From: Alphaproteobacteria bacterium
GTDB taxonomy: Bacteria > Pseudomonadota > Alphaproteobacteria > Acetobacterales > Acetobacteraceae
DNA: 64,000 bases
Direction of reading: 5' to 3'
NCBI GenBank assembly: GCA_026400815.1
Contig: JAPLOI010000077.1
Location: 124,001 to 188,000, forward strand
Positions 29,037-59,806 of the stretch are shown here, one piece after another. The notes below the pieces were generated by a model, which was not told the DNA's origin, ran no database searches, and saw only the letters and a program-made list of their open reading frames with translations. How positions within the stretch are numbered: the first letter of the stretch is position 1; each line of letters opens with the position of its first letter. The position numbers were made by a program, and so were the translations under genes.

Positions 29037-31400
29037 CTATTCGCCCGCCTGCTGCAGCCCGCCCTGCCGCACCGATGCCACCGCCCGCACCCGCGCCGCC
29101 TTCCGCCCGGCCAGCCGGTCATGCACCGTCAGCGCCTGCGCCACCACCTGGTCCATGTTGTAGTAGCGATACGTGGCCAGCCGGCCGACGAAGGTCACAC
29201 CCGGCTCCGCATCCGCCAGCGCCTGGTAGCGGGCATACAGCGCCGCGTTCTCCGGCCGCGGCACCGGGTAGTACGGGTCGCCCTCCGCACTCGGGTACTC
29301 ATAGGTCAGGCTGGTGCGCCGGCTCGCCTGGCCCGTGAGGTATTTGTATTCCGTGATCCGCGTATAGGGCACCTCGGGCGAGGGATAGTTCACCACCCCC
29401 ACCGGCTGGAACCACTCCCGCTCTACCGTCTCGTGCCGGAACTTCAAGGAGCGATACGGCAGCTTGCCCAGGCGATGGCCGAAATACTCGTCCACCGGCC
29501 CGGTGAAGATCAGGTGGCCGTATTCCACCTCGTCGCGGATATCCTGCCACTCGCAGCCCAGCATCACGGTGATGTTGTCGTGGTCCAGCATGTTCTCGAA
29601 CATGCGCGTGTAGCCGTGCAGCGGCATCTGCTGGAACGTGTCGTTGAAATAGCGGTCGTCGTCGTTGCTGCGCACCGGAATGCGCCCGGCCACGGCCTTG
29701 TCCAGCGCGCTCGGCGGCACGCCCCACTGCTTCAACGTGTAGCCACGGAACAACGCCTCGTACAGCTCGCGGCCGACCTTGGAGAGCACGATGTCCTCGC
29801 TGGTGCGCACCTCGGCCACCGTCTCCGCCTTGCTGGCCAGGAACGCCGCCACCTCGCTTTCGCTGAGATCGAGCCCGAAGAACGTGTTCACCGTGGTGCG
29901 GTTGATCGGCACCGGCAGCATCATTTCGCCCACCCGCGCCAGCACGCGGTGCTCATAGGGCCGCCAATGGGTGAAGCGCGAGAGATACGCCACCACCCGG
30001 GGCGCGTTGGTGTGGAAGATGTGCGGGCCGTAGCGATGCACCAGCAGCCCGGCGCTGTTGGTCTCGTCGAACGCATTGCCGCCGATATGCGGCCTGCGAT
30101 CCACCACCAGCACCTTCGCGCCATCCGCGCGCGCCAGCCGCTCCGCCAGCACGGCGCCCGCGAAGCCGGCCCCCACCACGAGGTAGTCGTAGTGCGCCGG
30201 GCGGGCGAGATGGGGGGCCACCACGCTGCGTTGCAGCAGCGCGGGCGCGTTGGCGGCCATCTTGGCCGTGATCATGGCCCACATCGCCGCCCAGGTGCGG
30301 TCCCAGGACGTGCCGGCCAGCATCCGGTCCACCCCTGCCAGCCAGCCGGGCTGCCGCGTGTCGATTTCCAGCGCCGCGGCGATGCTGGCCACGAACGCCT
30401 TCGCCCCGAGCGCGATCGCCACGCCGGGCAGGTCGCTGTAGTGCCGCACCACATCGGCCACCGGCGTGGAAACCACCGGCCGCCCGGCGGCGAGGTACTC
30501 CGGCAGCTTGGTCGGGCTGATGAAGCGCGTGGAGTCGTTCAGCGCGAACGGCATCACCGCCACATCCCAGTGCCCGACATAATCGGGCAGCGCATCATAC
30601 GCCTTGGCGCCGAGGTAGTGGATGTTGTCCCGCCGCGGCAGGTCATCGGCCGAGATCTTCACCACCGGCCCCAGCATCACGAACTGCCAGTCTGGCCGCG
30701 CCTCCGCCGCCGCTGCCAGCAGGTCGAGGTCGATGCGCTCGTCGATCACGCCGCAATAGCCGATGCGCGGCTGGCTGATGCCGGCCTGGTCCGCCGGCTC
30801 CACGCCGCCGGCGCGCGCGCGCCCGAAATGCGCCGCATCCACGCTGCTGGGGAAGGGATGAATATCCGGGTGCCGGTCGCGCTTGGCTTCGTAGAGCCCG
30901 TGCCCGCCGGTGAACACCAGGTCGGCCCGCGCCATCAGCAGCGCCTCGCGGTCGCGCAAGCCAGCCGGCGCGCCGCGAAAGGCCGAAAGTTCGTCCATGC
31001 AGTCGTACACCACGGCCGCCGCCGGCAGGTGGCCGGAAAAGCCGAGCATCATCGGCGTGTAGTACCACAGCAGCGGCCGCACGATGCCGCGCGCCGCCAC
31101 CAGCCCATCCAGCGCCACGCGCTGCGCCGCCTCGGCCGCCGCCGCGTCCATGCCCTCCGGCAGCCGCATGCGCATCACCTCCAGCTGCGGCGAGCGCGGC
31201 TCGATCTCCAGCATCGGGGCCACATCGGGCGCGAACACCGGCTCTTCCCAGAAGATCACCTTCATCTGGCGTGAAAGCCGGGTGATCAGGTGTTGCGGTC
31301 TCTGGAAAACAAAATCCCACCGCAGATGGGAAAAACAGATCGCCGTCTTCTCAATAATGTTGATGCTTATCGAGGACTTCGCGATATGCTTGGGTGCCAC
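29037..31400 (-). CDS. Fusion: glycosyltransferase plus UDP-galactopyranose mutase
   Basis: A 787-residue two-domain protein. The N-terminal part (about residues 20-370) is a GT4-like glycosyltransferase: ICFSHLRWDFVFQRPQHL, VVYDCMDELSAFRGAP, a GYCGVIDERID centre and SPTKLPEYLAAGRPVVST. The C-terminal part (about 400-770) is UDP-galactopyranose mutase: FAD loop YLVVGAGFAGAVLAERLA, GGNAFDE, HRYGPHIFHTN, a PINRTTVNTF region and YTRITEYKYLTG. The mutase makes UDP-galactofuranose and the transferase would use it for cell-surface glycans. The start is GTG at 31400, with GGAG five bases upstream; a TTG at 31418 is possible. It lies downstream of cofC on the same strand. Confidence 0.9.
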   Translation of the reverse strand: MAPKHIAKSSISINIIEKTAICFSHLRWDFVFQRPQHLITRLSRQMKVIFWEEPVFAPDVAPMLEIEPRSPQLEVMRMRLPEGMDAAAAEAAQRVALDGLVAARGIVRPLLWYYTPMMLGFSGHLPAAAVVYDCMDELSAFRGAPAGLRDREALLMARADLVFTGGHGLYEAKRDRHPDIHPFPSSVDAAHFGRARAGGVEPADQAGISQPRIGYCGVIDERIDLDLLAAAAEARPDWQFVMLGPVVKISADDLPRRDNIHYLGAKAYDALPDYVGHWDVAVMPFALNDSTRFISPTKLPEYLAAGRPVVSTPVADVVRHYSDLPGVAIALGAKAFVASIAAALEIDTRQPGWLAGVDRMLAGTSWDRTWAAMWAMITAKMAANAPALLQRSVVAPHLARPAHYDYLVVGAGFAGAVLAERLARADGAKVLVVDRRPHIGGNAFDETNSAGLLVHRYGPHIFHTNAPRVVAYLSRFTHWRPYEHRVLARVGEMMLPVPINRTTVNTFFGLDLSESEVAAFLASKAETVAEVRTSEDIVLSKVGRELYEALFRGYTLKQWGVPPSALDKAVAGRIPVRSNDDDRYFNDTFQQMPLHGYTRMFENMLDHDNITVMLGCEWQDIRDEVEYGHLIFTGPVDEYFGHRLGKLPYRSLKFRHETVEREWFQPVGVVNYPSPEVPYTRITEYKYLTGQASRRTSLTYEYPSAEGDPYYPVPRPENAALYARYQALADAEPGVTFVGRLATYRYYNMDQVVAQALTVHDRLAGRKAARVRAVASVRQGGLQQAGE

Positions 31401-31507
31401 TCTGCTCTCCACCGTCAACGCCGGTGCAGGAATGCTTGGCCACGCGAAAGGTTCCCCGTCGTTTCATTTGTACGGGGTGATAGGTTGCTGGGTACCCCGC
31501 CGGGTTG

Positions 31508-32182
31508 CTACAGCCCGGCCTCGCCCAACCGCCGCGGTACCGCCATCGCCTCCAGCAGCGCCCGCGTGCGGGTGCCGTGGGACTGCGGCAGCCGCAGGAA
31601 GGCGGCGAGGTCCACGGGATGGTCGATATCCATCGCAATCCCCGGCTGGCGCACCACCTGTGGCTCCATCCCGGCCGCCCGCGCGGCATCAAGGTGCGGG
31701 AAGTAGGAGTTCTCGCCAAAGCGCAGCTTCACGGCCATGGGCGGCGAGACGATCACCGTGTTCGATCCCTGCTCGTCATGCGCCGGCACGATGGTGAACC
31801 CTGCCGAACCCGCATGCGCCGCCAGCGCCGCATCGATCTCGCCCGGCATGGTGGCGGGAATATCGATCGGCAGCGTCAGGATGCCCGCCACGCCCTCGGC
31901 CGCCAGCACACGCCGCCCGCCATCCACGCTGCCGGTATGCCCATCGCGCGCGCCGGTCTCGATCACCCGCCAGCCTTCGCGCTTGGCGATCGCCACCGCG
32001 CGGGCCTCCAGCGTCACCAGCGCCACGCCGGCCAGGCGCGTGCTGCCAGCCAACGCCGCCAGCACCTCCTCCATCATCGTGATGGCCAGGGCATGCCGCT
32101 CCTCCGGCGACAGGAAGCCGGCCAGGCGCTGCTTGGCGCCCTCCAGCTCCTTCACCGGAATCACGGCCCAAATGCCGCTCAT
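31508..32182 (-). CDS. cofC: 2-phospho-L-lactate (or phosphoenolpyruvate) guanylyltransferase, F420 biosynthesis
   Basis: CofC/FbiD activates a three-carbon phospho-acid with GTP for F420 side-chain synthesis. The 224-residue protein starts with the nucleotidyltransferase motif IWAVIPVKELEGAKQRLAGFL and has GILTLPIDIPATM, PAHDEQGSNTVIVSPP, RFGENSYFPHLDAA and AMDIDHPVDLAAFL, all in the CofC order. Whether the acid is phospholactate, phosphoenolpyruvate or 3-phosphoglycerate cannot be told here. It overlaps cofD by four bases and is the last gene of the fgd-cofE-cofD-cofC operon. Confidence 0.92.
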   Translation of the reverse strand: MSGIWAVIPVKELEGAKQRLAGFLSPEERHALAITMMEEVLAALAGSTRLAGVALVTLEARAVAIAKREGWRVIETGARDGHTGSVDGGRRVLAAEGVAGILTLPIDIPATMPGEIDAALAAHAGSAGFTIVPAHDEQGSNTVIVSPPMAVKLRFGENSYFPHLDAARAAGMEPQVVRQPGIAMDIDHPVDLAAFLRLPQSHGTRTRALLEAMAVPRRLGEAGL

Positions 32183-33135
32183 GCGCGCAGGGAGTCAGCC
32201 AGCTCCAGCGACACCTGCGCCAGCGCCACCTTGTCCTCCAGCGAGGTCATCAGCGTCGGCGCCAGCACGCAGCGCGCCGCCAGCCCCTCGGCCTCCGCCG
32301 CGTCCTGGCGGTCCAGCACGTAGCCATCCAGCAACGCGCCATAGCGCTTGGCCACGGAAGCGGCCCCCGCCGGCAGGCCCAGCTCGGCCATCATCTTCGC
32401 CGTCGGCCCCTTCACCGCCTTGCCGCCGATGATGGGCGAGACCGCCACGCACGGCGCCGTTCGCGCCGCGAAGGCTTCGCGCACGCCGGGCAGCGCCAGG
32501 ATCGGCTCCACCGAGATGAACGGGTTGGAGGGGCAGATCACGATCGCCCGCAGCCGGGGGCTCGCCAGCGCAGCGAGGAAATCGGGATGCGCCCGCGCCG
32601 TCTCGGCCCCATCGAACCGCAACGCCTTCACCACCGGCCGGCATTGGCGGCCGACGAAATAGTCCTGGAAATCCAGCAGCCCCTCGTCGCTGTCCACGCG
32701 CGTGCGCACGGGATCATCGGACATCGGCAGCACGCGCGCTTCGATCCCCAACCGCCGCGTCATGTCCGTGGTGATGGAAGACAGCGTCTCGCCAGCCTTC
32801 AGCCGCAACGTTCTGGCCACATGCAGCGCGAGGTCACGATCCCCCAGCCGGAACCACGCCGGCCCGCCCAGCGTGGCCAGCACCTCCATGAAATTCCAGC
32901 TTTCGTCCCGCCGCCCCCAGCCCAGCGTCTGGTTGTCCAGGCCCGAGAGCGCATAGGTCAGCGTGTCGATATCCGGCGAGATCGAAAGCCCGAGATGCTC
33001 GAAATCGTCGCCGGTATTGGCCACGATCAACAGGTTCTCCGGCGCTACCACCTTGGACAAGCCGAGCGCCAGCTTCGCGCCGCCGACGCCGCCGGAGAGC
33101 GCCAGCACGAGATCGCGGCTCCCAAGGGAACTCAT
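32179..33135 (-). CDS. cofD: 2-phospho-L-lactate transferase, F420 biosynthesis
   Basis: CofD/FbiA transfers the activated acid to the deazaflavin Fo to give F420-0 or its dehydro form. The 318-residue protein shows the family start LALSGGVGGAKLALGL, the substrate region NTGDDFEHLGLSISPDIDT, YALSGLDNQTLGWG, FRLGDRDLA, ICPSNPFISVEPILALPG and SPIIGGKAVKGP. The ATG at 33135 overlaps the cofE stop codon (ATGA); a longer frame exists but is only a shadow of cofE. Domain order and length match single-function CofD proteins. Confidence 0.95.
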   Translation of the reverse strand: MSSLGSRDLVLALSGGVGGAKLALGLSKVVAPENLLIVANTGDDFEHLGLSISPDIDTLTYALSGLDNQTLGWGRRDESWNFMEVLATLGGPAWFRLGDRDLALHVARTLRLKAGETLSSITTDMTRRLGIEARVLPMSDDPVRTRVDSDEGLLDFQDYFVGRQCRPVVKALRFDGAETARAHPDFLAALASPRLRAIVICPSNPFISVEPILALPGVREAFAARTAPCVAVSPIIGGKAVKGPTAKMMAELGLPAGAASVAKRYGALLDGYVLDRQDAAEAEGLAARCVLAPTLMTSLEDKVALAQVSLELADSLRA

Positions 33136-33899
33136 CGAAACAGATCCTCCTGCGGCGGCCGCACCAGCTGCGCCACCCCCATCGCCGGCTGCGACCACGA
33201 GAGCCCACGCACCAGCACTACCGGCTGCCCCTCGGCACCCTGGCCCTGGATCAGCGAGGCCGCTGCTGCAATTTCATCGGCAAAGCCGCTGATGCTCACT
33301 TCCAGGATGCGCCCGAACAGATCCGGGTTGCCGCGCAGGTCCACCAGCGCCGGCAGGCCCGCCGCCCCGATGGCGATCCCCGCCGTGCCCCGCCGCCATG
33401 CGCGGCCAAAGCTGTCGGAAATCACCACCCCGAACGGCCCGCCCACCGAAGGCGCCAGCCGCGCCCGCAGCCGCTCGGCACTGGCATCGGGGTCTTCCGG
33501 CAGCAGCAGCACGCGCTCGGTGCCGTCCTGCGCGCCCACGTTGGAATGGTCGATGCCCGCATTGGCCATCACCCAGCCGCGCTTATGCTCCACGATCAAC
33601 AGGTTCGGCCGCGCCCTGACCACCCGCACTGCCTGGTCCAGGATCACCTGCACCACGCGCGGGTCCTTCTGCACCGTCTGCGCCAGCTCGATCGCCTCGG
33701 CGGAGGCCACCACAGTGGGGATCTCCACGATCCGCCCCTCGGCCTTCGAGACGATCTTCTGCGCCAGCACCAGCACATCGCCGGGCTCAAGAGAAAACCC
33801 GGCGCGGTCAAGCCCGGCCTCGATCAGCGCGGCGAGGTCGTCACCCGGCCGCACCATCGGCAGGCCGGGTAGCGCATGCAGCGAAAGGGAGGCGGCCAC
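33132..33899 (-). CDS. cofE: Coenzyme F420-0:L-glutamate ligase
   Basis: CofE adds gamma-linked glutamates to F420-0 using GTP. The 255-residue protein has the CofE pattern: LEPGDVLVLAQKIVSKAEGR, ANAGIDHSNV, the catalytic-site block VVISDSFGRAWRRGTAGIAIG and LVDLRGNPDLFGR. It ends after this domain, so it lacks the C-terminal nitroreductase-like part that actinobacterial FbiB uses to reduce dehydro-F420. The start is GTG at 33899, one base from the fgd stop codon, and the end overlaps cofD by four bases. An unlinked reductase may be needed. Confidence 0.94.
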   Translation of the reverse strand: MAASLSLHALPGLPMVRPGDDLAALIEAGLDRAGFSLEPGDVLVLAQKIVSKAEGRIVEIPTVVASAEAIELAQTVQKDPRVVQVILDQAVRVVRARPNLLIVEHKRGWVMANAGIDHSNVGAQDGTERVLLLPEDPDASAERLRARLAPSVGGPFGVVISDSFGRAWRRGTAGIAIGAAGLPALVDLRGNPDLFGRILEVSISGFADEIAAAASLIQGQGAEGQPVVLVRGLSWSQPAMGVAQLVRPPQEDLFR

Positions 33900-33900
33900 G

Positions 33901-34905
33901 TCAGCCGAACTTCTTCCGCAGCAGCGGCAGCACGGTCTCGCCGTACAGCTTCAGGAACCGCGCCTGGTCCGGCCCCGGGGCATGGAACACCAGATGGCGG
34001 AAGCCGAGGCCCACATACCAGCCGATCTTCTCCACATGCTCCTCAGCATCGTTGGAAACGATCCAGCGCTTCGCCGCCCGCTCAAGCGGCAGCGCATCGG
34101 CCAGACGCTCCATCTCCACCGGGTCCTCCACGGTCATCTTCTCCTCCGGCGAGAGAGCCAGCGCCGCCCAGTGGCGGGTGTCCTCCAGTGCCCTCTGCTT
34201 GTCGGTGTCGAAGCTGACCTTCACCTCGATCATGTTGTCGTAGCCGGGCTTCTCCTTGCCGGAGGCGGCCATGCCCTCCTTCACGTTGGGCAGCAGCGTT
34301 TCGGTGTACAGCTCTACCGCCTTGCCGGAGGTGCAGATGAACCCGTCCCCGGCCCGCCCTGCATACTTGGCGATCATGGCACCGGCGGCAGCGACATAGA
34401 TCGGCACCGGCTCGCTGGGCCGGTCGTAGATCGTGGCGTTCTCGGTCTTGTAGTAGGTGCCCTCGAAGCTCACCCGCTCCTCGGTCCACAGCTTGCGCAT
34501 CAGCTGCACGCTCTCGCGCAGGCGGGCGAAGCGTTCCTTGAAGTCCGGCCAATGGATGCCCATCGCCGGCACCTCGTTCAGCCCCTCGCCGGTGCCGATG
34601 CCCAGGATCACGCGGCCCGGGAACATGCTGCCCAGCGTGCCGAAGGCCTGCGCCACGATGGACGGATGGTAGCGGAAGGTGGGCGTCAGCACCGAGGTGC
34701 CCATCACGATCCGGCTGGTGCGGGCGCCGAGCGCGCCGAGCCACACCAGCGAGTTCGGCGCATGGCCGTCCGTGTGCTTCCAGGGCTGGAAATGGTCGCT
34801 GATGAAGACGGAATCGAAGCCCGCCTGTTCCGCCTGAACGGCGTAGTCCAGCAGTTTCATCGGCGCGAATTGTTCCGCCGAGGCCTTGTAGCCGAGCTTG
34901 AGCAT
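33901..34905 (-). CDS. fgd: F420-dependent glucose-6-phosphate dehydrogenase homologue
   Basis: A 334-residue LLM-fold enzyme very close to mycobacterial FGD1 (336 residues). FGD1 oxidises glucose-6-phosphate while reducing F420, supplying F420H2. Shared blocks are [63 protein letters not shown] and [14 protein letters not shown]. Residues equivalent to mycobacterial His40, Trp44, Glu109, Lys198, Lys259 and Arg283 (catalysis and sugar-phosphate binding) are all present; the equivalent of Gln47 is Thr. The ATG at 34905 starts the homology. It heads the fgd-cofE-cofD-cofC operon. Other hexose 6-phosphates could be the true substrate. Confidence 0.93.
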
Positions 34906-35011
34906 CTGTTTCGTCCCCGATTGCCTCGCCTGGATATGGCGTGGCGCCGCCCCATGGCCAGTCGCGACATGCAGTCTATAGTCTCGCCCGATCGCGGCAA
35001 ACAGGGAGGGC
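34906..35011. promoter_or_regulatory. Divergent promoter region between fgd and an LLM oxidoreductase gene
   Basis: The 106 bases between the divergent starts at 34905 and about 35012 must hold promoters for the F420 operon and for the LLM gene. No clear -35/-10 pair or operator palindrome stands out. The shared control region suggests joint regulation. Confidence 0.5.
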
Positions 35012-35917
35012 ATGATGGGCATGAAGCTGGGGGTGGCATTCTCGGCCACCGACATGGGTGCGGCACCAGGCGTGCTGCGCGACTTCGCCCTGCTGGCCGA
35101 GGAGATCGGCTACGACGACCTGATGCTGCCCGACCACGTGCTGGGCGTGAACACCGAAAGCCGGCCGGATTGGGGTGCCCGCAATACCTCCAAGGATGCG
35201 TTCCACGACCCGTTCGTGGCCTTCGGCTTCCTCGCCGCCGTCTGCCAGCGCATCCATTTCTCCACCCAGGTGCTGATCCTGGCCCAGCGCCAAGCCACGC
35301 TGGTGGCCAAGCAGGCCGCGAATGTGGACGTGCTCAGCGAGGGCCGTTTCCGCCTCGGCATCGGCGTGGGCTGGAACGAGGCGGAGTTCATCGGCCTCAA
35401 CGAGAATTTCCACGACCGCGGTAAGCGCTCGGTGGAGCAGATCGAGGTGATGCAGGCGCTGTGGGCGGCCGATCACGTGGATTTCAAGGGCAAGTGGCAC
35501 ACCATCCCGGATGCCGGCATCAACCCGCGCCCGGCCAGCGGCCGCGTGCCGGTGTGGTTCGGCGGGCACATGGATGTCACGCTACGCCGCATTGCGCGCC
35601 TCGGCGATGGCTGGATGATGAACGTCCACCCGCCTGGCGATGCCGCGCTGGCCGATTTCGCCACGCTGCGCCGCTACACCGCGGAAGCCGGGCGCCCCGC
35701 GGACAGCGTCGGCATCGAGGTCTGGACCTCCATGGGGACGGGCACCGAAGACGATTGGCGGCGCGAATTCCAGTTCTGGAAGGATGCCGGCGTGTCGCGC
35801 GTTACGCTCAACACCACCTTCAATCGCAACCACCACAAGCGCATCGCCGGCCGCAGCTTCGCCGAGCATGCCGCCGCGATCCGGCGCTGGCACGCCGCGG
35901 TGGCCGATCTTGTTTGA
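35012..35917 (+). CDS. LLM class oxidoreductase, probably F420-dependent
   Basis: A protein of up to 301 residues with the luciferase-like TIM barrel: [12 protein letters not shown] at the start, [56 protein letters not shown] and VPVWFGGH. These blocks are typical of F420-using LLM proteins (the [11 protein letters not shown] class). The ATG at 35012 is one base after GGGAGGG, too close, so 35015 or 35021 is the more likely start. It is divergent from the F420 operon, which favours F420 over FMN as cofactor. The substrate is unknown. Confidence 0.85.
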
Positions 35918-41988: not shown

Positions 41989-43029
41989 CTAGAGGACTGC
42001 CTCGGCGACGGTGCGGATGGCTTCGCGGTTGGCGCCGGTGAGGATCATGGTGCCGACCTTGCCTTGGTTGGAGGCTTCTTTCCAGGCGGCCAGGCGATCG
42101 CGGATGCGTTCCTTGGGGCCGATGAGGGCGAGCTCGTCCACCAGCTTGTCGGGCACCAGGGCGGCGGCGGCGTCTTTCTTGCCGTCGAGGTAGAGGTCCT
42201 GGATCTGGATGGCCTCGGCTTCGTAGCCCAGGCGCTTGGCGTAGTCGTTGTAGTAGTTCTTGCCGCGGGCCCCCATGCCGCCGATGTAGAGGGCGTATTC
42301 GGGCTTGCAGCTGTCGCGCAGGGCCTGGAGGTCGGTGCCGACGCGGACCTTCACGTGCGGAGCGACGTCGTAATCGGCGAGCGACACCGCGCGGCCCGCC
42401 TTGGCCATGCCGTCGAGCACGGTCTTGCACATGAGGTCGGCTTTTTCCGGGGACATGAAGATGGGGATGTTGCCGTCTGCCACCTCGCCGGAGACGCGCA
42501 GGCCGCCGGGGGTGATGGAAGCGGTGTAGAACTTCATGTCCGGGTTGCCGTGGGTCATGGACCGCAGCGGCTTGGCCAGGCCGGAGGCGCCGGGGCCCTG
42601 GTAGGGGATCTGGTAGTACTCGCCGTCGTGGGTGAGGGGTTTTTCGCGGGCCAGGATCTTGCGGATGATGGCGATGTATTCGCGGGTGCGGTCGACCGGC
42701 TTGCCGAAGGGCTGGCCGTGCCAGCCTTCGATGACCTGGGGACCCGAGGGGCCGACGCCGCAGAGGAAGCGGTTGCCGGAAAGGGCCTGCAGCGTCATCG
42801 CCGTCATGGCCGCGCAGGTGGGGGTGCGGGCGGACATCTGCATGATGCCGGTGCCGGCCTTGATCTTGGTGGTGCGGGCCAGGACGTAGGCGGCGGGGAC
42901 GACGGCATCGGTGCCGTAGGCCTCGCCGGTCCACACCGAATCGTAGCCGAGGGATTCGGCTTCGAGGACGAGGTCGATGTCGATGCGCGGGCTGGGGCCG
43001 CCGACGGCGAGGGTGAGGCCTAGTTTCAT
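41989..43029 (-). CDS. LLM class oxidoreductase, probably F420-dependent
   Basis: A 346-residue luciferase-like protein: MKLGLTLAVGG start, AESLGYDSVWTGEAYGTDAV, IKAGTGIMQMSARTP and GNRFLCGVGPSGPQVIEGWHG are characteristic of the F420-linked LLM oxidoreductases in actinobacteria. The C-terminal half is longer than in the other LLM proteins in this window. It is a single gene, 257 bases downstream of the next LLM gene on the same strand. Linkage to F420 genes supports the cofactor; the substrate is not known. Confidence 0.85.
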   Translation of the reverse strand: MKLGLTLAVGGPSPRIDIDLVLEAESLGYDSVWTGEAYGTDAVVPAAYVLARTTKIKAGTGIMQMSARTPTCAAMTAMTLQALSGNRFLCGVGPSGPQVIEGWHGQPFGKPVDRTREYIAIIRKILAREKPLTHDGEYYQIPYQGPGASGLAKPLRSMTHGNPDMKFYTASITPGGLRVSGEVADGNIPIFMSPEKADLMCKTVLDGMAKAGRAVSLADYDVAPHVKVRVGTDLQALRDSCKPEYALYIGGMGARGKNYYNDYAKRLGYEAEAIQIQDLYLDGKKDAAAALVPDKLVDELALIGPKERIRDRLAAWKEASNQGKVGTMILTGANREAIRTVAEAVL

Positions 43030-43084
43030 TTTGGCGTTTCCTTTCGGGCGGGGCTCACAGATTGGCAGGCGGAGGCGTTGGGAG

Positions 43085-43232
43085 AAAGAAAGTGGCCACT
43101 AAGACACAAAGAAGCAAGGCAAGGGAGAAGGGGCGGATGGCGACGCCATGCGTGCTCTCTTGGCCCTGAGGAATCATTCTTCTCTCTTGGCTTTCTTCTT
43201 TGTGTCTTTGTGTCTTTGTGGCCGCTTTCTTT
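43085..43232. repeat. Large inverted repeat, about 150 bp
   Basis: Left arm beginning AAAGAAAGTGGCCAC (43085-43099) matches the reverse complement of GTGGCCGCTTTCTTT (43218-43232) with one mismatch. The match continues inward through AGACACAAAG and a purine-rich stretch for roughly 45-55 bases on each side; the right arm carries an extra ACAAAGACA unit. The unpaired centre is about 50 bases. No coding frame fits. It may be a miniature inverted-repeat element or a long-stem RNA feature. Confidence 0.65.
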
Positions 43233-43256
43233 GTATGAGGCTGCGGGTCGTGGGGT

Positions 43257-43278
43257 GGCGGGCTGACGCCCGCCCTAC
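43257..43278. repeat. REP-like palindrome with CCCTAC edge
   Basis: GGCGGGC (43257-43263) and GCCCGCC (43268-43274) form a perfect stem around TGAC, followed by CTAC. It is seven bases beyond the end of the minus-strand LLM gene at 43286 and is the third copy of the GTAGGG-edged family in the window. Confidence 0.6.
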
Positions 43279-43285
43279 AGTGGCG

Positions 43286-44236
43286 TTAGATCTTGGCCAG
43301 GACGTCGGTGCGGAAGGATTGCATGGCGGCGAGGACTTCCGGGGCGGTTGTGCCGGGGAAGCCGAAGTCGATGCTGGTGACGCCGACGTCGCGCAGGGCG
43401 CGGATGTCGGCGGCGGTTTGGGTGGCGTCGCCGGCGAAGAGGCGGGGTTGGCCATCCGACGCGTTGGCCGGGCCGGGGGTGGCCCAGCCGGAGACGCGGT
43501 AGATCAGGTCGATGGTTTTCGGGTTGCGGCCGATGGCATCCGCGGTCTTGTGGAGTTTTGCCACGCCGGCCTTGAAGCGGGCCAGGCTGTCGAGCGGGAA
43601 GGCGGGGTTGGTGCCGATGGGGTACCAGCCATCGGCCATGCGGGCGGTGCGGCGCAAGGCGGGGCCGGATTCGCCGCCGACCCAGATGGGGATGGTGTTC
43701 TGCACCGGCTTCGGGTCGAGCAGGATGTTGTCGAACCTGGTGTATTTGCCGGCGAAGCGGGGTTCGGGCTGGGTCCAGAGCTCGCGGAAGACCTGGAGGT
43801 ATTCGTCCGTCACCGCGCCGCGCTCGGCGAAGGGCGGGGCGCCGACGGCTATGAATTCTTCCTCCATCCAGCCGGCGCCGATACCCAGGGTGAGGCGGCC
43901 GTTGGAGAGCACGTCGATGGTGGCGAGGATCTTGGCCGTGAGCACGGCGGGGCGGTGCGGGACGACCATGACCGAGGTGATGAGGCGCAGCTTGGTGGTT
44001 TTGGCGGCGACCCAGGCGATTTCGGTGAGCTGCTCATGGCGCTCGGCCCGCGCGCCGGCGGGGAATTCGCCGGTGGAGGAATAGGGGTAGGTGCTGTCGA
44101 TCTGGGTGGGGATGACGACATGGTCGGAGAAAGTAGCGTAGTCGAAGCCCATGGCCTCGCCGCCCTGGCAGAGCTCGGCCAATGGGCCGGGTGCCGAGAG
44201 GGGGCCAGCGGTGGGGGCGTTGAAGCCGATTTTCAT
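43286..44236 (-). CDS. LLM class oxidoreductase, probably F420-dependent
   Basis: A 316-residue luciferase-like protein. MKIGFNAPTAGPLSAP begins the barrel; MGFDYATFSDHVVIP, LRLITSVMVVPHRPAVLTAKILATIDVLSNGRLTLGIGAGWMEEEF and IPIWVGGESGPALRRTARMADGWYPIG are classic F420-LLM blocks. The ATG at 44236 is chosen since homology starts there. It is divergent from fbiC with a 101-base gap, so both are probably under shared control. The substrate is unknown. Confidence 0.88.
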   Translation of the reverse strand: MKIGFNAPTAGPLSAPGPLAELCQGGEAMGFDYATFSDHVVIPTQIDSTYPYSSTGEFPAGARAERHEQLTEIAWVAAKTTKLRLITSVMVVPHRPAVLTAKILATIDVLSNGRLTLGIGAGWMEEEFIAVGAPPFAERGAVTDEYLQVFRELWTQPEPRFAGKYTRFDNILLDPKPVQNTIPIWVGGESGPALRRTARMADGWYPIGTNPAFPLDSLARFKAGVAKLHKTADAIGRNPKTIDLIYRVSGWATPGPANASDGQPRLFAGDATQTAADIRALRDVGVTSIDFGFPGTTAPEVLAAMQSFRTDVLAKI

Positions 44237-44337
44237 GACGTCTCCCTTGAACGGCGGGCCGATTGCATCGAGGTGCCGGAGGCGACACGATGGAGCGTGG
44301 CGCGGCATGCCGCAAGCCGGCGCGGGGGAATGGGTTC

Positions 44338-46710
44338 ATGGACGCACGGGTGACGGATGGCGCGCTGACGGATCGGCTTCTGGCCGCGCCGCTGGAGGCA
44401 CTGATGGCGGAGGCAGCCGGGCTGCGCGATGGGGCGCATGGCCGGGTGGTTTCGTATTCGCGCAAGGTGTTCATCCCGCTGACCAAGCTGTGCCGGGATG
44501 TGTGCCATTACTGCACCTTCGCCGAGCGGCCGAAGAAGGGGCATGCGGCGTATCTGTCGCCCGACGAGGTTCTGGCGATCGCGCGGGCGGGGGGGGCGGC
44601 GGGCTGCACCGAGGCGCTGTTCACGCTGGGGGACAAGCCGGAGCTTCGTTATGAGGCGGCGCGGGAGGGGCTGGCGGCGCTGGGGTATGCGACGACGGTT
44701 GAGTACCTGGTGGCGATGTGCGCGCTGGTGCTGAAGGAGACCGGGCTGCTGCCGCATGCCAATCCCGGGGTGATGACGAAGGAGGAGATCCTGGCGCTGC
44801 GGGCGGTGAGCGCGAGCCAGGGGATCATGCTGGAGAGTACGTCCAACCGGTTGTGCGAGCGGGGCGGGGTGCATTTCGGGTCGCCGGACAAGGCGCCGGC
44901 GGTGCGGCTGGAGACCATCCGGCTGGCGGGCGAGGCGCGCGTGCCGTTCACGACCGGCATTCTCATTGGCATTGGGGAGACGCGGGCGGAGCGGGTCGAG
45001 GCGCTGGTGGCCATTCGCGATCTGCATGCGCAGTACGGGCACATCCAGGAAGTGATCGTGCAGAACTTCCGCGCAAAGCCGAAGACCAAGCGCGAGGCGG
45101 CGCCGGAGCCGGATCTGGATGATCTGCTGTGGACGGTGGCCGTTGCCCGGATCGTGCTGGGGGCAGGGATGAATTTGCAGGCGCCGCCGAATTTGTCGCC
45201 GGGGGTGTATCAGCGCCTGGTGGGGGCGGGGCTGAACGACTGGGGCGGGGTGTCTCCGGTGACGCCGGATCATGTGAACCCGGAGGCGCCGTGGCCGCAT
45301 CTGGATGACCTCGCGCGGCGGACGGCGGAGGCCGGCAAGGTGCTGGTCGGAAGGCTGCCGGTGTATCCCGCCTATGCGCGCGATGCCGGGGATTGGATGG
45401 GGGCTGCGGTGGCCGCACAGGTGCGGCGGATGGCCGATGCCGAGGGCTTCGCGCGCGAGGACGATTGGGCGCCGGGGCAGGTGACGTTGCCGAAGGCGCC
45501 GGAGGTGCTGCTGAGCGATGTGGACCGGCGGGTCTCGCGGGCGGTGGAGAAGGCGGCGGGCGGGACGCGGCTGGATCCGCCGGAGATAGAGCTGCTGTTC
45601 ACGGCGCGGGATGCCGACTATGGGCATGTGACGCGGGCGGCGGATGCGCTGCGCAAGGCGGTTTCCGGGGACGTGATCCGGTATGTGGTGAACCGGAACA
45701 TCAACTACACCAACATGTGCACGTATCGTTGCACGTTCTGCGCCTTTTCCAAGGGCAAGACGCATGAGGCGCTGCGCGGGCCGGCCTATGATTTGGAAAT
45801 GGGCGAGATCGTGCGGCGGGTGGAGGAGGCCTGGGCGCGCGGAGCGACTGAGGTGTGCCTGCAGGGCGGCATCCATCCCGACTACACCGGCGAGACCTAT
45901 GTGCGGATCTGCGAGGCGATCAAGGCGGCGGTTCCGGACATGCATATCCATGCGTTTTCGCCGCTGGAGGTGACGCAGGGGGCGGCGACGCTGGGCTTGT
46001 CTCTGACCGAGTTCCTGGCGCGTTTGAAGGCGGCGGGGTTGGGGACGCTGCCGGGGACGGCGGCGGAGATCCTGGATGATGAGGTGCGGAAGATCATCTG
46101 CGCGGACAAGGTGAACACCGAGGAATGGCTGGCGGTGGCGCGGGCGGCGCATGGGCTGGGGCTGCGGACGACCTCGACGATCATGTACGGGCATGTGGAG
46201 GCGCCGGTTTCCTGGGCACGGCATCTGCTGGTGCTCAGGGATTTGCAGAGCGAGACCGGCGGGTTCACGGAGTTCGTGCCGCTGCCCTTCGTGCACATGG
46301 AGGCGCCGATGTATCTGAAGGGCCAGGCACGAAAGGGGCCGACGCTGCGCGAGGCGGTGCTGATGCATTCCGTGGCGCGGCTGGTGCTGCATCCCGGGAT
46401 TGCGAACATCCAGACCAGTTGGGTGAAGATGGGGCCGCATGGGGCGGCGCTGTGCCTGGAGGCAGGTGCCAACGATCTCGGGGGCACGCTGATGAACGAG
46501 AGCATCAGCCGCGCGGCCGGGACGGAGCATGGGCAGGAATTCGCGCCCGAGCGGATGGAGACGCTGATCCGCGGGATCTCGCGCGTGCCGCAGCAGCGGA
46601 CGACGGCGTATGGCGTGCCGTCGCAGGAGCGGGTGGCGATGAGCTTCGAGGCGGCGGAGCTGGCGCCGGTGGTGCAGAACGCGCCCAGGAAGCGGGCGGC
46701 AGTGGAGTAA
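44338..46710 (+). CDS. fbiC: FbiC: fused 7,8-didemethyl-8-hydroxy-5-deazariboflavin (Fo) synthase
   Basis: FbiC makes the deazaflavin Fo from tyrosine and a ribityl-pyrimidine using two radical SAM reactions. The 790-residue protein has CofG first and CofH second, as in actinobacteria. The first cluster motif is CRDVCHYC near residue 55 and the second CTYRCTFC near residue 465, both CxxxCxxC. Other landmarks are GILIGIGETRAER, CLQGGIHPDYTGE and TEFVPLPFVHM. The start ATG at 44338 follows GGGGGAATGGG. With cofC, cofD and cofE it completes the recognised F420 pathway in the window. Its 3' end is followed at once by a T-rich repeat. Confidence 0.96.
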   Translation: MDARVTDGALTDRLLAAPLEALMAEAAGLRDGAHGRVVSYSRKVFIPLTKLCRDVCHYCTFAERPKKGHAAYLSPDEVLAIARAGGAAGCTEALFTLGDKPELRYEAAREGLAALGYATTVEYLVAMCALVLKETGLLPHANPGVMTKEEILALRAVSASQGIMLESTSNRLCERGGVHFGSPDKAPAVRLETIRLAGEARVPFTTGILIGIGETRAERVEALVAIRDLHAQYGHIQEVIVQNFRAKPKTKREAAPEPDLDDLLWTVAVARIVLGAGMNLQAPPNLSPGVYQRLVGAGLNDWGGVSPVTPDHVNPEAPWPHLDDLARRTAEAGKVLVGRLPVYPAYARDAGDWMGAAVAAQVRRMADAEGFAREDDWAPGQVTLPKAPEVLLSDVDRRVSRAVEKAAGGTRLDPPEIELLFTARDADYGHVTRAADALRKAVSGDVIRYVVNRNINYTNMCTYRCTFCAFSKGKTHEALRGPAYDLEMGEIVRRVEEAWARGATEVCLQGGIHPDYTGETYVRICEAIKAAVPDMHIHAFSPLEVTQGAATLGLSLTEFLARLKAAGLGTLPGTAAEILDDEVRKIICADKVNTEEWLAVARAAHGLGLRTTSTIMYGHVEAPVSWARHLLVLRDLQSETGGFTEFVPLPFVHMEAPMYLKGQARKGPTLREAVLMHSVARLVLHPGIANIQTSWVKMGPHGAALCLEAGANDLGGTLMNESISRAAGTEHGQEFAPERMETLIRGISRVPQQRTTAYGVPSQERVAMSFEAAELAPVVQNAPRKRAAVE

Positions 46711-53780: not shown

Positions 53781-54845
53781 ATGGGCATTCCCGACTCCTT
53801 ACCGTCCCGTCTCCGCCCCATCGACCTCGGCGGCGGCGTGGTGATCGACACGCCGGTGATCCTGGCGCCGATGTCTGGCGTGACGGATCTGCCGTTCCGC
53901 CGGCTGGCGCGCGAGCTGGGCGCGGGGCTGGTGGTGTCTGAAATGATCGCCTCCTGGGCGATGGTGCGCGAGAACAAGGCAACGCTGCGGATGGCGGCGA
54001 TGGACGGCAAGCCGACCTCCATCCAACTCGCCGGCTGCGACCCGGAGGCGATGGCGGAGGCGGCGCGCATCGCCGTGGCCAAGGGTGCCGATATCGTCGA
54101 CATCAATTTCGGCTGCCCGGTGAAGAAGGTGGCGGTGGGCCAGATGGCCGGTAGCGCGCTGATGCGCGACGAAATCGGCGCGGCACGCATCCTGGAAGCC
54201 ACCGTGAAGGCGGTGCCGGTGCCGGTGACGCTGAAGATGCGCATGGGCTGGGACCATAATTCGCTCAACGCGCCGAAGCTGGCGCGGATCGCGGAGGAGT
54301 CCGGCATCCGGATGGTGACGGTGCACGGCCGCACCCGGCAGATGTTCTACACCGGCACGGCGGATTGGGATTTCATCGCCAGCGTGAAGGCGGCCACGAA
54401 CCTGCCGCTGATCGCCAATGGCGACATCACCAGCGAGGACGATGCGGCCGAGGCGCTGCGGCGGTCTGGTGCGGATGGGGTAATGGTGGGGCGCGGCTGC
54501 TACGGAAGGCCGTGGTTCCCAGCCCAGGTGGCGCATTACCTGCAGACCGGTGAGCGGATTCCGGAGCCGGACCTGGCCGCGCAGAAAGACATCATGCTGC
54601 GCCACTACGCGGCGATGCAGCTGCATTTCGGCACCGAGCCCGGCATGCGCCTGGCCCGCAAGCATTTGTCCTGGTACTCGCGCGGCCTGCGCGGATCGGC
54701 GGATTTCCGCGCCACCGTGATGCGGCTGCCCGATGTGCCCGCGGTGCTGGAAGCAATCGACCGGTTCTACGACCCGCTGATCGAGCGCGGCGAGCAGCGG
54801 GTGCGCGAGAAGCTGCCGGATTCCGAGATGGCCGAAGCCGCATGA
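53781..54845 (+). CDS. dusB: tRNA dihydrouridine synthase DusB
   Basis: DusB reduces specific uridines in tRNA using FMN and NADPH. The 354-residue protein shows VILAPMSGVTDLPFRRLARELG, the catalytic cysteine in DINFGCPVKKV, GSALMRDE, KMRMGWD, TVHGRTRQMFYTGTADW and GVMVGRGCYGRPWF. It is the usual gene ahead of ntrBC in alphaproteobacteria, where older literature called it nifR3. Its stop codon overlaps the ntrB start (ATGA), so nitrogen regulation and dusB share one transcript. Confidence 0.96.
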   Translation: MGIPDSLPSRLRPIDLGGGVVIDTPVILAPMSGVTDLPFRRLARELGAGLVVSEMIASWAMVRENKATLRMAAMDGKPTSIQLAGCDPEAMAEAARIAVAKGADIVDINFGCPVKKVAVGQMAGSALMRDEIGAARILEATVKAVPVPVTLKMRMGWDHNSLNAPKLARIAEESGIRMVTVHGRTRQMFYTGTADWDFIASVKAATNLPLIANGDITSEDDAAEALRRSGADGVMVGRGCYGRPWFPAQVAHYLQTGERIPEPDLAAQKDIMLRHYAAMQLHFGTEPGMRLARKHLSWYSRGLRGSADFRATVMRLPDVPAVLEAIDRFYDPLIERGEQRVREKLPDSEMAEAA

Positions 54846-55975
54846 GGAACATGCTGCTCAGCGCGGTGCGGCTGGCGGAACGGCGCCGGCCCGCGCCGCC
54901 TGATTCCACGGCGATGCTGTCCGCCCTGCCGGTGCCGGTGGTGGTGCTGGACCGGGAGAACCGGCTGCGCTTCCTGAACCATGCCGGCGAGCAGTTCCTG
55001 GGCATTTCCGCCGCGGCGGCCGCCCAGCTTTCCCTTTCGGATTTCCTGGCCGCCGACAATCCGCTGTTCCTGCTGGTGGACCAGGTGCGCCAGCACGATG
55101 CGCGGGTGGCCGACCACGACATGGCGCTGGAAGGCCCGCGGCTGAAGCGCATGAACATCGCCGTGCAGGGCGCGCCGCTGCCGGAGGAGCCCGGCGCGGT
55201 GGTGCTGGTGCTGCATGATGCCACCGCCGCCCGCGCGCTGGACCGGCAACTGACGGTGCGCGGGGCCGCGCGCTCCGTGGCCGGGCTTGCGGCCACGCTG
55301 GCGCATGAGGTGAAGAACCCACTTTCCGGCATCCGGGGTGCCGCGCAGCTGCTGGAGGCCAGCGTCTCCGAGGCCGATCGCGAGCTGACCGTGCTGATCC
55401 GCGACGAGGCAGACCGCATCCGCGACCTGGTGGACCGGATGGAGGCGTTCGGCGAGAAGCCGGTGCAGTACGGCCCGGTGAACATCCATCGCGTGCTGGA
55501 GCATGTTCGGCGGCTGGCGCAATCGGGCTTCGCCGCCTCGATCCGCTTCACGGAGCTGTACGACCCCTCCCTGCCGCCGGTGCACGGCAACCGCGACCAG
55601 CTGGTGCAGGTGATCCTGAACCTGGTGAAGAACGCGGCCGAGGCGATCGTGCAGGGCGACGTGGCGCATGGCGAGATCCACATGATCACTGGCTTCCAGC
55701 ACGGGGTGCGGCTGGCAGCGCCAGGCAGCGACGCGCGGCGGCATCTGCCGCTGTTCGTGATCGTGCGCGACAACGGGCCGGGCATTCCGGACGATATCCG
55801 CCCGCATCTGTTCGACCCGTTCGTCAGCGGCAAGCCCTCCGGCAGCGGGCTTGGTTTGGCGCTGGTGGCCAAGATCGTCAGCGACCATGGCGGCCTGGTG
55901 GAGGTGGAAAGCCGCGGCGGGCGGACGGAGTTCCGCCTGATGCTGCCGATGGTCGACGAAGAGAGCCAGAACTGA
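54842..55975 (+). CDS. ntrB: Nitrogen regulation sensor histidine kinase NtrB
   Basis: NtrB senses nitrogen status through PII and phosphorylates NtrC. The 377-residue cytoplasmic kinase has an N-terminal PAS domain ([20 protein letters not shown]), the H-box [22 protein letters not shown] with the phospho-His near residue 157, an N-box [11 protein letters not shown], then DNGPGIPDD and [13 protein letters not shown] for ATP binding. It begins inside the dusB stop codon and is followed by ntrC 28 bases later. The assignment is secure from sequence and order. Confidence 0.96.
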
Positions 55976-56003
55976 GGCCGGCGTCACTGAAAGATTGTGT
56001 GCC

Positions 56004-57470
<1,467 letters not shown>

Positions 57471-57476
57471 TCGTCG

Positions 57477-59786
57477 ATGGACGCCGCGCCCATCTTGCAG
57501 CCGGTGCCGGAGGCGGAGCAGGTGCCGCCGCGGCGGGATGGGCTGCGGGCCCGGCTGTCGCGGCTGGTGGACCTGCTGATCGGGCGCGTTTCCACCCTGG
57601 TGCTGGCCGCGGTGGCGCTGGCGCTGGGGGTGGCGACCTTCGTGTTCCTGGCCACCGGGGTGCAGCGGCCCAACCAGTTGTTCGCGCTGATCCTGGCCAA
57701 TCTGGTGGTGGTGCTGCTGCTGGTGGCCCTGCTGTCGGTGCGGCTGACCCGGGTGTGGATGGAGCGCAGGCGGGCGGCGGCCGGGGCGCGGCTGCACGTG
57801 CGCCTGGTGCTGCTGTTCAGCGTGGTGGCGGTAACCCCCGCGATCGTGGTGGCGGTGTTCTCCACCATCTTCTTCAACTACGGCATCCAGGCCTGGTTCG
57901 CCGACCCGGTGCGCACGGCGCTGCAACAGAGCCTGTCGGCGGCGCGTGGCTATGCCGAGGAGCACCGCAACAACATCCGCGCCGATGCGCTCAGCATGTC
58001 CGCCGACCTGGTGCGCGGCGGGCTGCGGCTGATGAGCACCGACCCGAACGGCTTCCTCAACTTCCTGGCCACCCAGACCGGGCTGCGCGGCCTCACGGAA
58101 TCGGCGATCTATGAGCCCGTCACGGGGCAGGTGATCGCCTCGGCCGGCAGCATGACGGGGTTCGAGAGCGTGGTGCCGCCGGAATGGGCCACCGAGATGG
58201 CGCGCACCGGCGACGTGGCCGTGCTGGGCAGCGAGGACCAGACCAAGGTGCGCGGCGTGGTGCTGCTGGAAACCACGCCGAACCTGATGCTGGTGATCGG
58301 CCGGCTGGTGGACCCCTCCATCCTCGATCACATCGTGCGGACGGAAAAGGCGGTGCAGCTCTACGAACGGCTGGACCAGAACCGCACTGGGTTGCAGGTG
58401 ACCTTCGCGGTGGTGTTCGCGCTGGTCGCCCTCGCCGTGCTGGCCGCGGCCGTGCTGATCGGGCTGGTGCTGGCCAACCAGATCGCACGCCCGGTGGGTG
58501 GGCTGATCACGGCGGCGGAGCGTGTGCGCGCCGGTGATCTTTCGGTGCGCGTGGCGGAGGTGGATACCGGAGATGACATCGCCGGCCTGTCGCGCGCCTT
58601 CAACCGCATGACAGGGCAGCTCGCGGCCCAGCGCAGCGAACTGATGGAGGCCTACAGCCAGATCGACGAGCGGCGCCGCTTCACCGAAACGGTGCTCTCC
58701 GGCGTGTCGGCCGGTGTGATCGGGCTGGATCCCGAGGGCCGTGTGGAACTGCCGAACCGCGCTGCCGGCACGCTGCTGGGGCGCGATCTGTGGCGCGACG
58801 TGGGCCGCCCGCTGGAGGAGGTGGTGCCGGAATTCGCACCATTGCTGCAGGCGGCCGTCGCGGCACCGTCGCAGGTGCACACGGCAGAGGTGCATCTGGA
58901 TTCGCCGCGCGAAGGCGGGGGCGGGCAGCGCCGCACGCTGCTGGCACGCATCGGCGCCGACCTCACCGCGCAGCCACCGGATCTCGAGGGCAACGAGCAG
59001 CCGGACCGGATCGCCAACCTGGTGGTGACCTTCGACGATATCACGGAGCTGCAATCCGCCCAGCGCAAGGCGGCCTGGGCCGATGTGGCACGCCGCATCG
59101 CGCACGAGATCAAGAACCCGCTGACACCGATCCAGCTTTCCGCCGAGCGCCTCAAGCGCCGCTTTGCCCGCGAGATCACCTCGGACCCCGAGACCTTCAT
59201 CCAGTGCGCCGACACCATCGTGCGCCATGTGGGCGATATCGGGCGGATGGTGGATGAGTTCAGCCGCTTCGCCCGCATGCCGCAGCCGGTGATCAAGCCG
59301 GAGGATATCGGCCGCGTGGTGCGCGAGGCGATGGTGCTGCAGCGCCAGGCGCGGCCAGACGTGGTGTTCACCACCGACATCCCGGATCGCGGGCCGGAAG
59401 CGCTCTGCGACCGGCGGCTGCTGGGCCAGGCGGTAACCAACCTGCTGCAGAACGCCGCCGATGCGCTGGCGATGCGGCCGGAGGGCAGCGGCCCAGACGG
59501 GACGAACAAGGGCCATATCGCCGTCGGCGTCGGGCTGCATGGCAATGAGGTGGTGATCGTGGTGGCCGATGACGGAATCGGGCTGCCGGGGCAGGATCGG
59601 GATAGGCTCACCGAACCCTATGTCACCCACAAGCCGAAAGGCACCGGACTTGGCCTGGCGATCGTCAAGAAGATCATGGAGGACCACGGCGGGCGGATTA
59701 CGCTCGACGACCGCGTGCCGGAGCCGGACTGGCCCGGAACCGGCGCGGTGGTGTGCCTGTTCCTGCCGCCCAGGCCGGCGGCCTGA
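57477..59786 (+). CDS. ntrY: Sensor histidine kinase NtrY
   Basis: A 769-residue membrane histidine kinase paired with NtrX. The N-terminus has two to three hydrophobic segments (LVLAAVALALGVATFVFLA, LFALILANLVVVLLLVALL and LVLLFSVVAVTPAIVVAVFS). A periplasmic or lumenal region follows, then another helix pair (VVFALVALAVLAAAVLIGLVL), HAMP (GDLSVRVAEVDTGDDIAGLSRAFN), PAS, and the kinase core with H-box RRIAHEIKNPLTPIQLSAERLK, ADDGIGLPGQD and GTGLGLAIVKKIME. NtrY-NtrX control nitrogen, redox and envelope genes in alphaproteobacteria. ntrX follows 20 bases downstream. Confidence 0.95.
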   Translation: MDAAPILQPVPEAEQVPPRRDGLRARLSRLVDLLIGRVSTLVLAAVALALGVATFVFLATGVQRPNQLFALILANLVVVLLLVALLSVRLTRVWMERRRAAAGARLHVRLVLLFSVVAVTPAIVVAVFSTIFFNYGIQAWFADPVRTALQQSLSAARGYAEEHRNNIRADALSMSADLVRGGLRLMSTDPNGFLNFLATQTGLRGLTESAIYEPVTGQVIASAGSMTGFESVVPPEWATEMARTGDVAVLGSEDQTKVRGVVLLETTPNLMLVIGRLVDPSILDHIVRTEKAVQLYERLDQNRTGLQVTFAVVFALVALAVLAAAVLIGLVLANQIARPVGGLITAAERVRAGDLSVRVAEVDTGDDIAGLSRAFNRMTGQLAAQRSELMEAYSQIDERRRFTETVLSGVSAGVIGLDPEGRVELPNRAAGTLLGRDLWRDVGRPLEEVVPEFAPLLQAAVAAPSQVHTAEVHLDSPREGGGGQRRTLLARIGADLTAQPPDLEGNEQPDRIANLVVTFDDITELQSAQRKAAWADVARRIAHEIKNPLTPIQLSAERLKRRFAREITSDPETFIQCADTIVRHVGDIGRMVDEFSRFARMPQPVIKPEDIGRVVREAMVLQRQARPDVVFTTDIPDRGPEALCDRRLLGQAVTNLLQNAADALAMRPEGSGPDGTNKGHIAVGVGLHGNEVVIVVADDGIGLPGQDRDRLTEPYVTHKPKGTGLGLAIVKKIMEDHGGRITLDDRVPEPDWPGTGAVVCLFLPPRPAA

Positions 59787-59806
59787 CCGGGTTCGGGGGG
59801 ACCACC

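Follow-up and report, generated by a model that had tools for sequence, protein, structure and literature searches.

A probable F420-dependent glucose-6-phosphate dehydrogenase encoded next to cofE, cofD and cofC in an alphaproteobacterium of the Acetobacteraceae

The closest described counterparts of the gene analyzed here encode the F420-dependent glucose-6-phosphate dehydrogenases (FGDs) FGD1 (Rv0407) of Mycobacterium tuberculosis and Rh-FGD1 of Rhodococcus jostii. Rh-FGD1 is reported to be highly specific for glucose-6-phosphate (G6P), and mutation of its phosphate-binding residues, equivalent to Lys198, Lys259 and Arg283 of FGD1, cripples G6P use (PMC5352752, sections considered here). 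Gly177 is reported as conserved in FGDs and was tied to FGD specificity by Mascotti et al. (PMC6279831, 2018), in whose text the position is Ser in the sugar-6-phosphate dehydrogenases (FSD) of Nocardioidaceae and Cryptosporangium and Met in Adf. An enzyme of Thermomicrobium roseum (PDB 9hav-9hay, TIGR03557 family) is called Fgd by its depositors and described as oxidizing G6P (PMC12750041, in part). For Alphaproteobacteria, the relevant sections of the review PMC8498797 state that predicted F420 producers encode Fgd, with “Alphaproteobacteria?” entered for it, and that they have it besides Fno. According to the same review, no more than traces of F420 were made by Oligotropha and Paracoccus.

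The window, a 64,000-nucleotide stretch of an Acetobacteraceae genome (contig JAPLOI010000077.1, positions 124,001 to 188,000), carries a candidate alphaproteobacterial FGD beside genes of F420 synthesis. The features of the locus are as follows.

33901-34905, minus strand: fgd, a 334-residue FGD (TIGR03554, residues, tree, model closest to 3b4y)
33132-33899, minus strand: cofE, coenzyme F420-0:L-glutamate ligase (TIGR01916, 269.1 bits, cut-off 180.65)
32179-33198, minus strand: cofD, 2-phospho-L-lactate transferase (TIGR01819, 282.3 bits, cut-off 257.45, match from residue 32)
31508-32182, minus strand: cofC, 2-phospho-L-lactate guanylyltransferase family (TIGR03552, 115.7 bits, cut-off 105)
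34906-35011, no strand: divergent intergenic region of 106 bp, from coordinates, presumed to hold the promoters of both sides
35012-35917, plus strand: divergent LLM oxidoreductase, annotated as F420-dependent (TIGR03619, 248.2 bits, cut-off 166.9)
44263-46710, plus strand: fbiC, fused CofG-CofH FO synthase (NF006687, 1140.6 bits, cut-off 1018), about 9 kb away

The FGD scored 487.4 bits against TIGR03554, the coenzyme-F420 glucose-6-phosphate dehydrogenase equivalog with a cut-off of 420, and also passed the wider TIGR03557 family (257 bits, cut-off 210). It belongs to the Bac_luciferase family PF00296; Pfam was run on three sets of 7, 10 and 10 window proteins, a subset of the ORFs. Identity to FGD1 was 60.8% over 329 aligned residues and identity to Rh-FGD1 was 59.5%, and the best sequence matches among solved structures were those same two proteins (3b4y from M. 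tuberculosis and 5lxe, respectively). The family score and the identity to FGD1 bear out the first-pass annotation of the protein as an FGD1 homologue. An AlphaFold2 model with a mean pLDDT of 82.4 lay nearest to 3b4y (Z 37.7, rmsd 2.5 over 312 residues), with 5lxe tied at a Z of 37.2, and the T. roseum enzyme and Adf trailed with 33.2 each. Family model and fold are those of FGD1 and Rh-FGD1. An alternative in-frame ATG at 35055 would give a 384-residue form overlapping the divergent gene that starts at 35012, and with 334 residues the protein already covers TIGR03554 from profile position 2 onward. Within its own genome, no second gene exceeded the TIGR03557 cut-off, the next best reaching 78 bits against 210.

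Residues were compared in FGD1 numbering in an alignment of 116 rows, of which 113 came from the 120 loci with a match, short matches having been dropped. For the close relatives, 329 of 340 matched stretches encoded a relative and 80 were kept. The window FGD keeps Glu13, Asp39, His40, Trp44, Ser73-Val74, Thr76, Glu109, Asn112, Thr195, Lys198, Lys259 and Arg283, and these residues recur in each of the 80 close relatives. They include the six catalytic and sugar-phosphate residues (His40, Trp44, Glu109, Lys198, Lys259, Arg283) that had been read from the sequence at first pass, and the F420-site Ser-Val, catalytic and phosphate residues are the same in FGD1 and Rh-FGD1. The gene probably encodes a true FGD, placed in an F420 cluster, that would make F420H2 from G6P, and the function predicted at first pass is sound in this respect. 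By analogy with FGD1, such a TIM-barrel luciferase-like hydride transferase would bind F420 and oxidize G6P to 6-phosphogluconolactone, with Lys198, Lys259 and Arg283 presumably holding the 6-phosphate and His40, Trp44 and Glu109 expected to act at the sugar C1 and the deazaflavin.

The pocket departs from that of the two actinobacterial enzymes at two positions, as FGD1 and Rh-FGD1 have Gly177 and His260, whereas the window FGD has Ala177 and Met260. The reported Gly177 is replaced by Ala in all 80 close relatives, and none of the 80 has His260, Met standing in its place in 73 of them. Among the deeper alphaproteobacterial rows, position 177 is Gly in locus L109 and Ser in L009 and L113. These two differences favor a broader, FSD-like sugar-6-phosphate dehydrogenase that would also use fructose-6- or mannose-6-phosphate at useful rates, a reading that we consider unlikely. 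FSD belongs to the same superfamily and has the same phosphate residues as the window FGD (PMC6279831, in part), and the phosphate residues do not separate the two activities, because according to that paper they do not differ between FGD and FSD. The Ser177 reported for FSD (the DH3 clade) is Ala in the window FGD, in a comparison that draws on the published description of FSD, the tree containing no verified FSD. Against the broader reading stand the score of 487 bits on the TIGR03554 equivalog, well over its cut-off of 420, and the presence of Ala177 in the enzyme of T. roseum (row L116, which shows no difference from 9hav over residues 2-347). As that Fgd is described as oxidizing G6P (PMC12750041, in part), Ala177 does not exclude FGD activity, and Gly177 is not counted here as defining FGD. 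The T. roseum enzyme is about 40% identical to the window FGD and, unlike it, has Asn rather than Lys aligned to position 198 of FGD1. No literature on His260 in FGD was found among open-access papers.

A different position, Thr in place of Gln47, had been proposed at first pass to alter sugar preference. This idea is weak because Gln47 is also absent from four of five actinobacterial FGDs compared (Q, E, E, K and K), including the G6P-specific Rhodococcus enzyme Rh-FGD1, which has Glu there. Position 47 varies freely, being Thr in 54, Val in 15 and Ile in 11 of the 80 close relatives, and Thr47 was dropped as a specificity determinant. The AlphaFold2 model cannot place the residue, since residues 39-49 have a pLDDT below 50. 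Judged from the alignment, Ala for Gly177 and the loss of His260, neither of them mentioned at first pass, would be the better specificity candidates, and as natural variants of this clade they may serve work on FGD specificity.

It is highly improbable that the protein is another LLM-family enzyme, for example an F420H2-dependent reductase or alcohol dehydrogenase that merely resembles FGD: all of these share PF00296 and the neighboring LLM genes do fall in other F420 subfamilies, but the fHMAD (TIGR04465) and TIGR03885 models gave only 234.2 and 248 bits against cut-offs of 470 and 398.7, all three phosphate-binding residues are present where the TIGR03885 row L120 has none and Adf, as aligned with the solved structures, lacks equivalents of Lys198 and Arg283 with a Lys at 259, and the FGD rows form their own clade in the trees.

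For the quick tree, thinning at 90% identity left 29 of 101 alphaproteobacterial rows. Of the 45 rows of the careful tree, 7 were removed (three LLMs of the window, Adf, L119, L120 and L026). In the careful tree, 35 FGD rows formed one clade with support of 100/96 against three TIGR03557 outgroup rows, with an unsure root inside the clade and long outgroup branches. The protein does not fall among other LLM subfamilies, the placement that the first-pass annotation had named as counting against it. Its nearest partners in the tree are L029, with the record title Rhodospirillales bacterium, and L033, with the record title Asaia bogorensis (95/79 for the three). A single clade of 30 alphaproteobacterial rows was rejected by an AU test (p 0.0074), with a likelihood difference of just 3.55 log units, very long outgroup branches, five actinobacterial rows that are all Mycobacteriales, and the test run after the quick tree had been seen. 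The FGD clade was rooted differently in the quick and the careful tree. Transfer from Actinobacteria is no more than a candidate reading, and the mycobacterial branch may have arisen inside the alphaproteobacterial ones.

The gene fgd is followed by cofE, cofD and cofC, all on the same strand. For fgd, which lies on the minus strand, the first-pass annotation had named no strand. A single base (33900) lies between the fgd stop and the cofE GTG at 33899, as had been noted at first pass. The listed ORF start of cofD overlaps cofE and the true start is probably nearer 33138. Counting fbiC, a 16-kb part of the window thus codes for FO synthesis as well as for the reactions of CofC, CofD and CofE. 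In contrast, one Rhodococcus plasmid carries its fgd between glpX and transketolase genes.

The arrangement is conserved among the 80 closest relatives, to which the following counts refer rather than to all alphaproteobacterial FGDs. The gene cofE came next after fgd within 700 bases in all 76 relatives with at least 800 bases downstream, with a gap of at most 51 bases in 70 of them and a longest gap of 649, and the order cofE-cofD-cofC was kept in 68 of 68 relatives with at least 3000 bases downstream. The divergent LLM gene, in versions of at least 50% identity, adjoined fgd in 25 of the 75 relatives with at least 1200 bases upstream. Among the deeper alphaproteobacterial loci, L109 has fgd and cofE in divergent orientation, while the short L009 and L113 showed no cofE. 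Among 60 genomes searched, all 17 that bear an FGD also contain cofE. One relative's genome without an FGD over the cut-off (G046) has npdG, the gene of an F420-dependent NADP reductase, over its cut-off directly before cofE on the same strand (contig C52: 6059-6679 and 5241-5996; L122 and L127), where fgd stands in the window, and this one case suggests that the position before cofE holds the F420 reducer. One cluster probably gives rise to FGD along with CofE, CofD and CofC, and the cofactor and its reducer would therefore be produced together. Nearby LLM enzymes would then spend the F420H2, with the product of the divergent gene at 35012-35917 as a possible user. Little is known about what F420 does in proteobacteria, and a conserved fgd-cofE-cofD-cofC order in genera with cultured members offers an accessible test system.

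Record titles of the 80 relatives name Acetobacteraceae, Rhodospirillales, Roseomonas, Asaia, Belnapia, Bradyrhizobium, Reyranella and other alphaproteobacteria, with one titled Proteobacteria. TIGR03554 exceeded its cut-off in 16 of the 60 relatives' genomes with the window's own included, the seventeenth FGD-bearing genome (G007) having its gene split over two contigs. In a sample of 289 genomes of the class it did so in 7, again including the own genome and spanning six family codes, and a sample of 349 from the whole phylum gave 2, namely the own genome and one other of the same class. Within the family to which the window belongs, 16 of 36 genomes carry FGD, and the family-model matches indicate that the enzyme is patchy but established in Alphaproteobacteria. 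The novelty implied at first pass, where FGD was called mainly actinobacterial, was overstated, as alphaproteobacterial Fgd is already predicted in PMC8498797 (sections considered) and the window FGD is an instance of that prediction. While those sections describe Fgd besides Fno, no match to npdG (Fno) at E 1e-15, the limit to which Fno was scored, was found in any of the 17 FGD-bearing genomes, the own one included.

Neither zwf, by family model and confirmed with the Pfam N-terminal domain, nor pgl (TIGR01198 lactonase), at the thresholds used, was found in the own genome and eight sampled congeners, although a divergent Fno, Zwf or lactonase can escape family models. In contrast, gnd was present in nine of nine of these genomes and clusters with rpiA and gntK in all five whose region was read, the own copies passing the cut-offs of TIGR00872, TIGR00021 and TIGR01313. 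As searches of the genome gave neither Fno nor Zwf, most of its F420 is probably reduced by FGD, which would also be the sole recognizable G6P dehydrogenase; in the genus as a whole it may, as far as gene content indicates, be the only enzyme of either kind. FGD could feed 6-phosphogluconate to Gnd and RpiA. The presence of gnd was rejected as proof of such a pathway, since the gluconokinase GntK of the same cluster is another source of 6-phosphogluconate and Gnd does not need FGD.

Zwf was absent from 12 of the 17 FGD-bearing genomes and present in 5, in a set of 60 of which 12 fall short of 90% completeness and 5% contamination. A second set of 49 FGD-bearing genomes, of unstated completeness, was reached through 50 of the 80 relative loci, and no zwf was found in 26, which include those of Belnapia mucosa, Siccirubricoccus deserti, Caldovatus sediminis and Roseicella frigidaeris. 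The two sets appear to share at least three genomes (L032, L033 and L071 of the 49 with G005, G003 and G023 of the first 60), all zwf-negative, and without them the count is 23 of 46. Within the window's family (f1), zwf occurred in 5 of 16 FGD-bearing genomes versus 16 of 20 others (Fisher p 0.006), with 8 of the 16 from one genus, G007 counted as FGD-bearing despite its split gene, and G004 among the 20 others. The latter is a congener with an fbiC of 96.6% identity, and a gap in its assembly may explain why fgd and cofE are missing. Counted per genus, with the window's genus entered once as FGD-bearing, the difference was not significant (5 of 9 versus 16 of 19, p 0.17), and zwf was also absent from 4 of the 20 FGD-negative genomes of the family. 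A coupling of Zwf loss to FGD is suggestive only on these gene counts.

Tentatively, this genus and several other Acetobacteraceae could have exchanged Zwf for FGD as their only G6P dehydrogenase, a possibility that we rate somewhat below even. The first oxidative step of the pentose phosphate pathway would then yield F420H2 instead of NADPH, the whole F420 pool would be charged by FGD without Fno, and the cof cluster would act as a module with the cell's chosen F420 reducer encoded just before cofE, by fgd here and by fno in one other alphaproteobacterium, G046. If FGD does take the place of both Zwf and Fno, these bacteria would couple their central carbon flow to F420H2 and not to NADPH. 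That the own genome and its eight sampled congeners have gnd but, at the thresholds used, no zwf, pgl or fno is new here and was beyond the view of the first-pass annotation, and no claim that FGD replaces Zwf was found in the open-access literature as judged by titles and the starts of abstracts.

Several further genes were observed in the window. Just downstream of cofC, a 793-residue ORF (29037-31418, minus strand) joins a group-1 glycosyltransferase to a UDP-galactopyranose mutase, and matches to it adjoin the cluster in L029, L030 and L031. The minus-strand region 41989-44308, next to fbiC, contains two more LLM genes (TIGR03559 and TIGR03619), and their counterparts adjoin fbiC in congener G004. 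At 54842-61201 on the plus strand, two successive pairs of a histidine kinase and a sigma-54 response regulator follow a dihydrouridine synthase gene, the second kinase having an NtrY N-terminal region.
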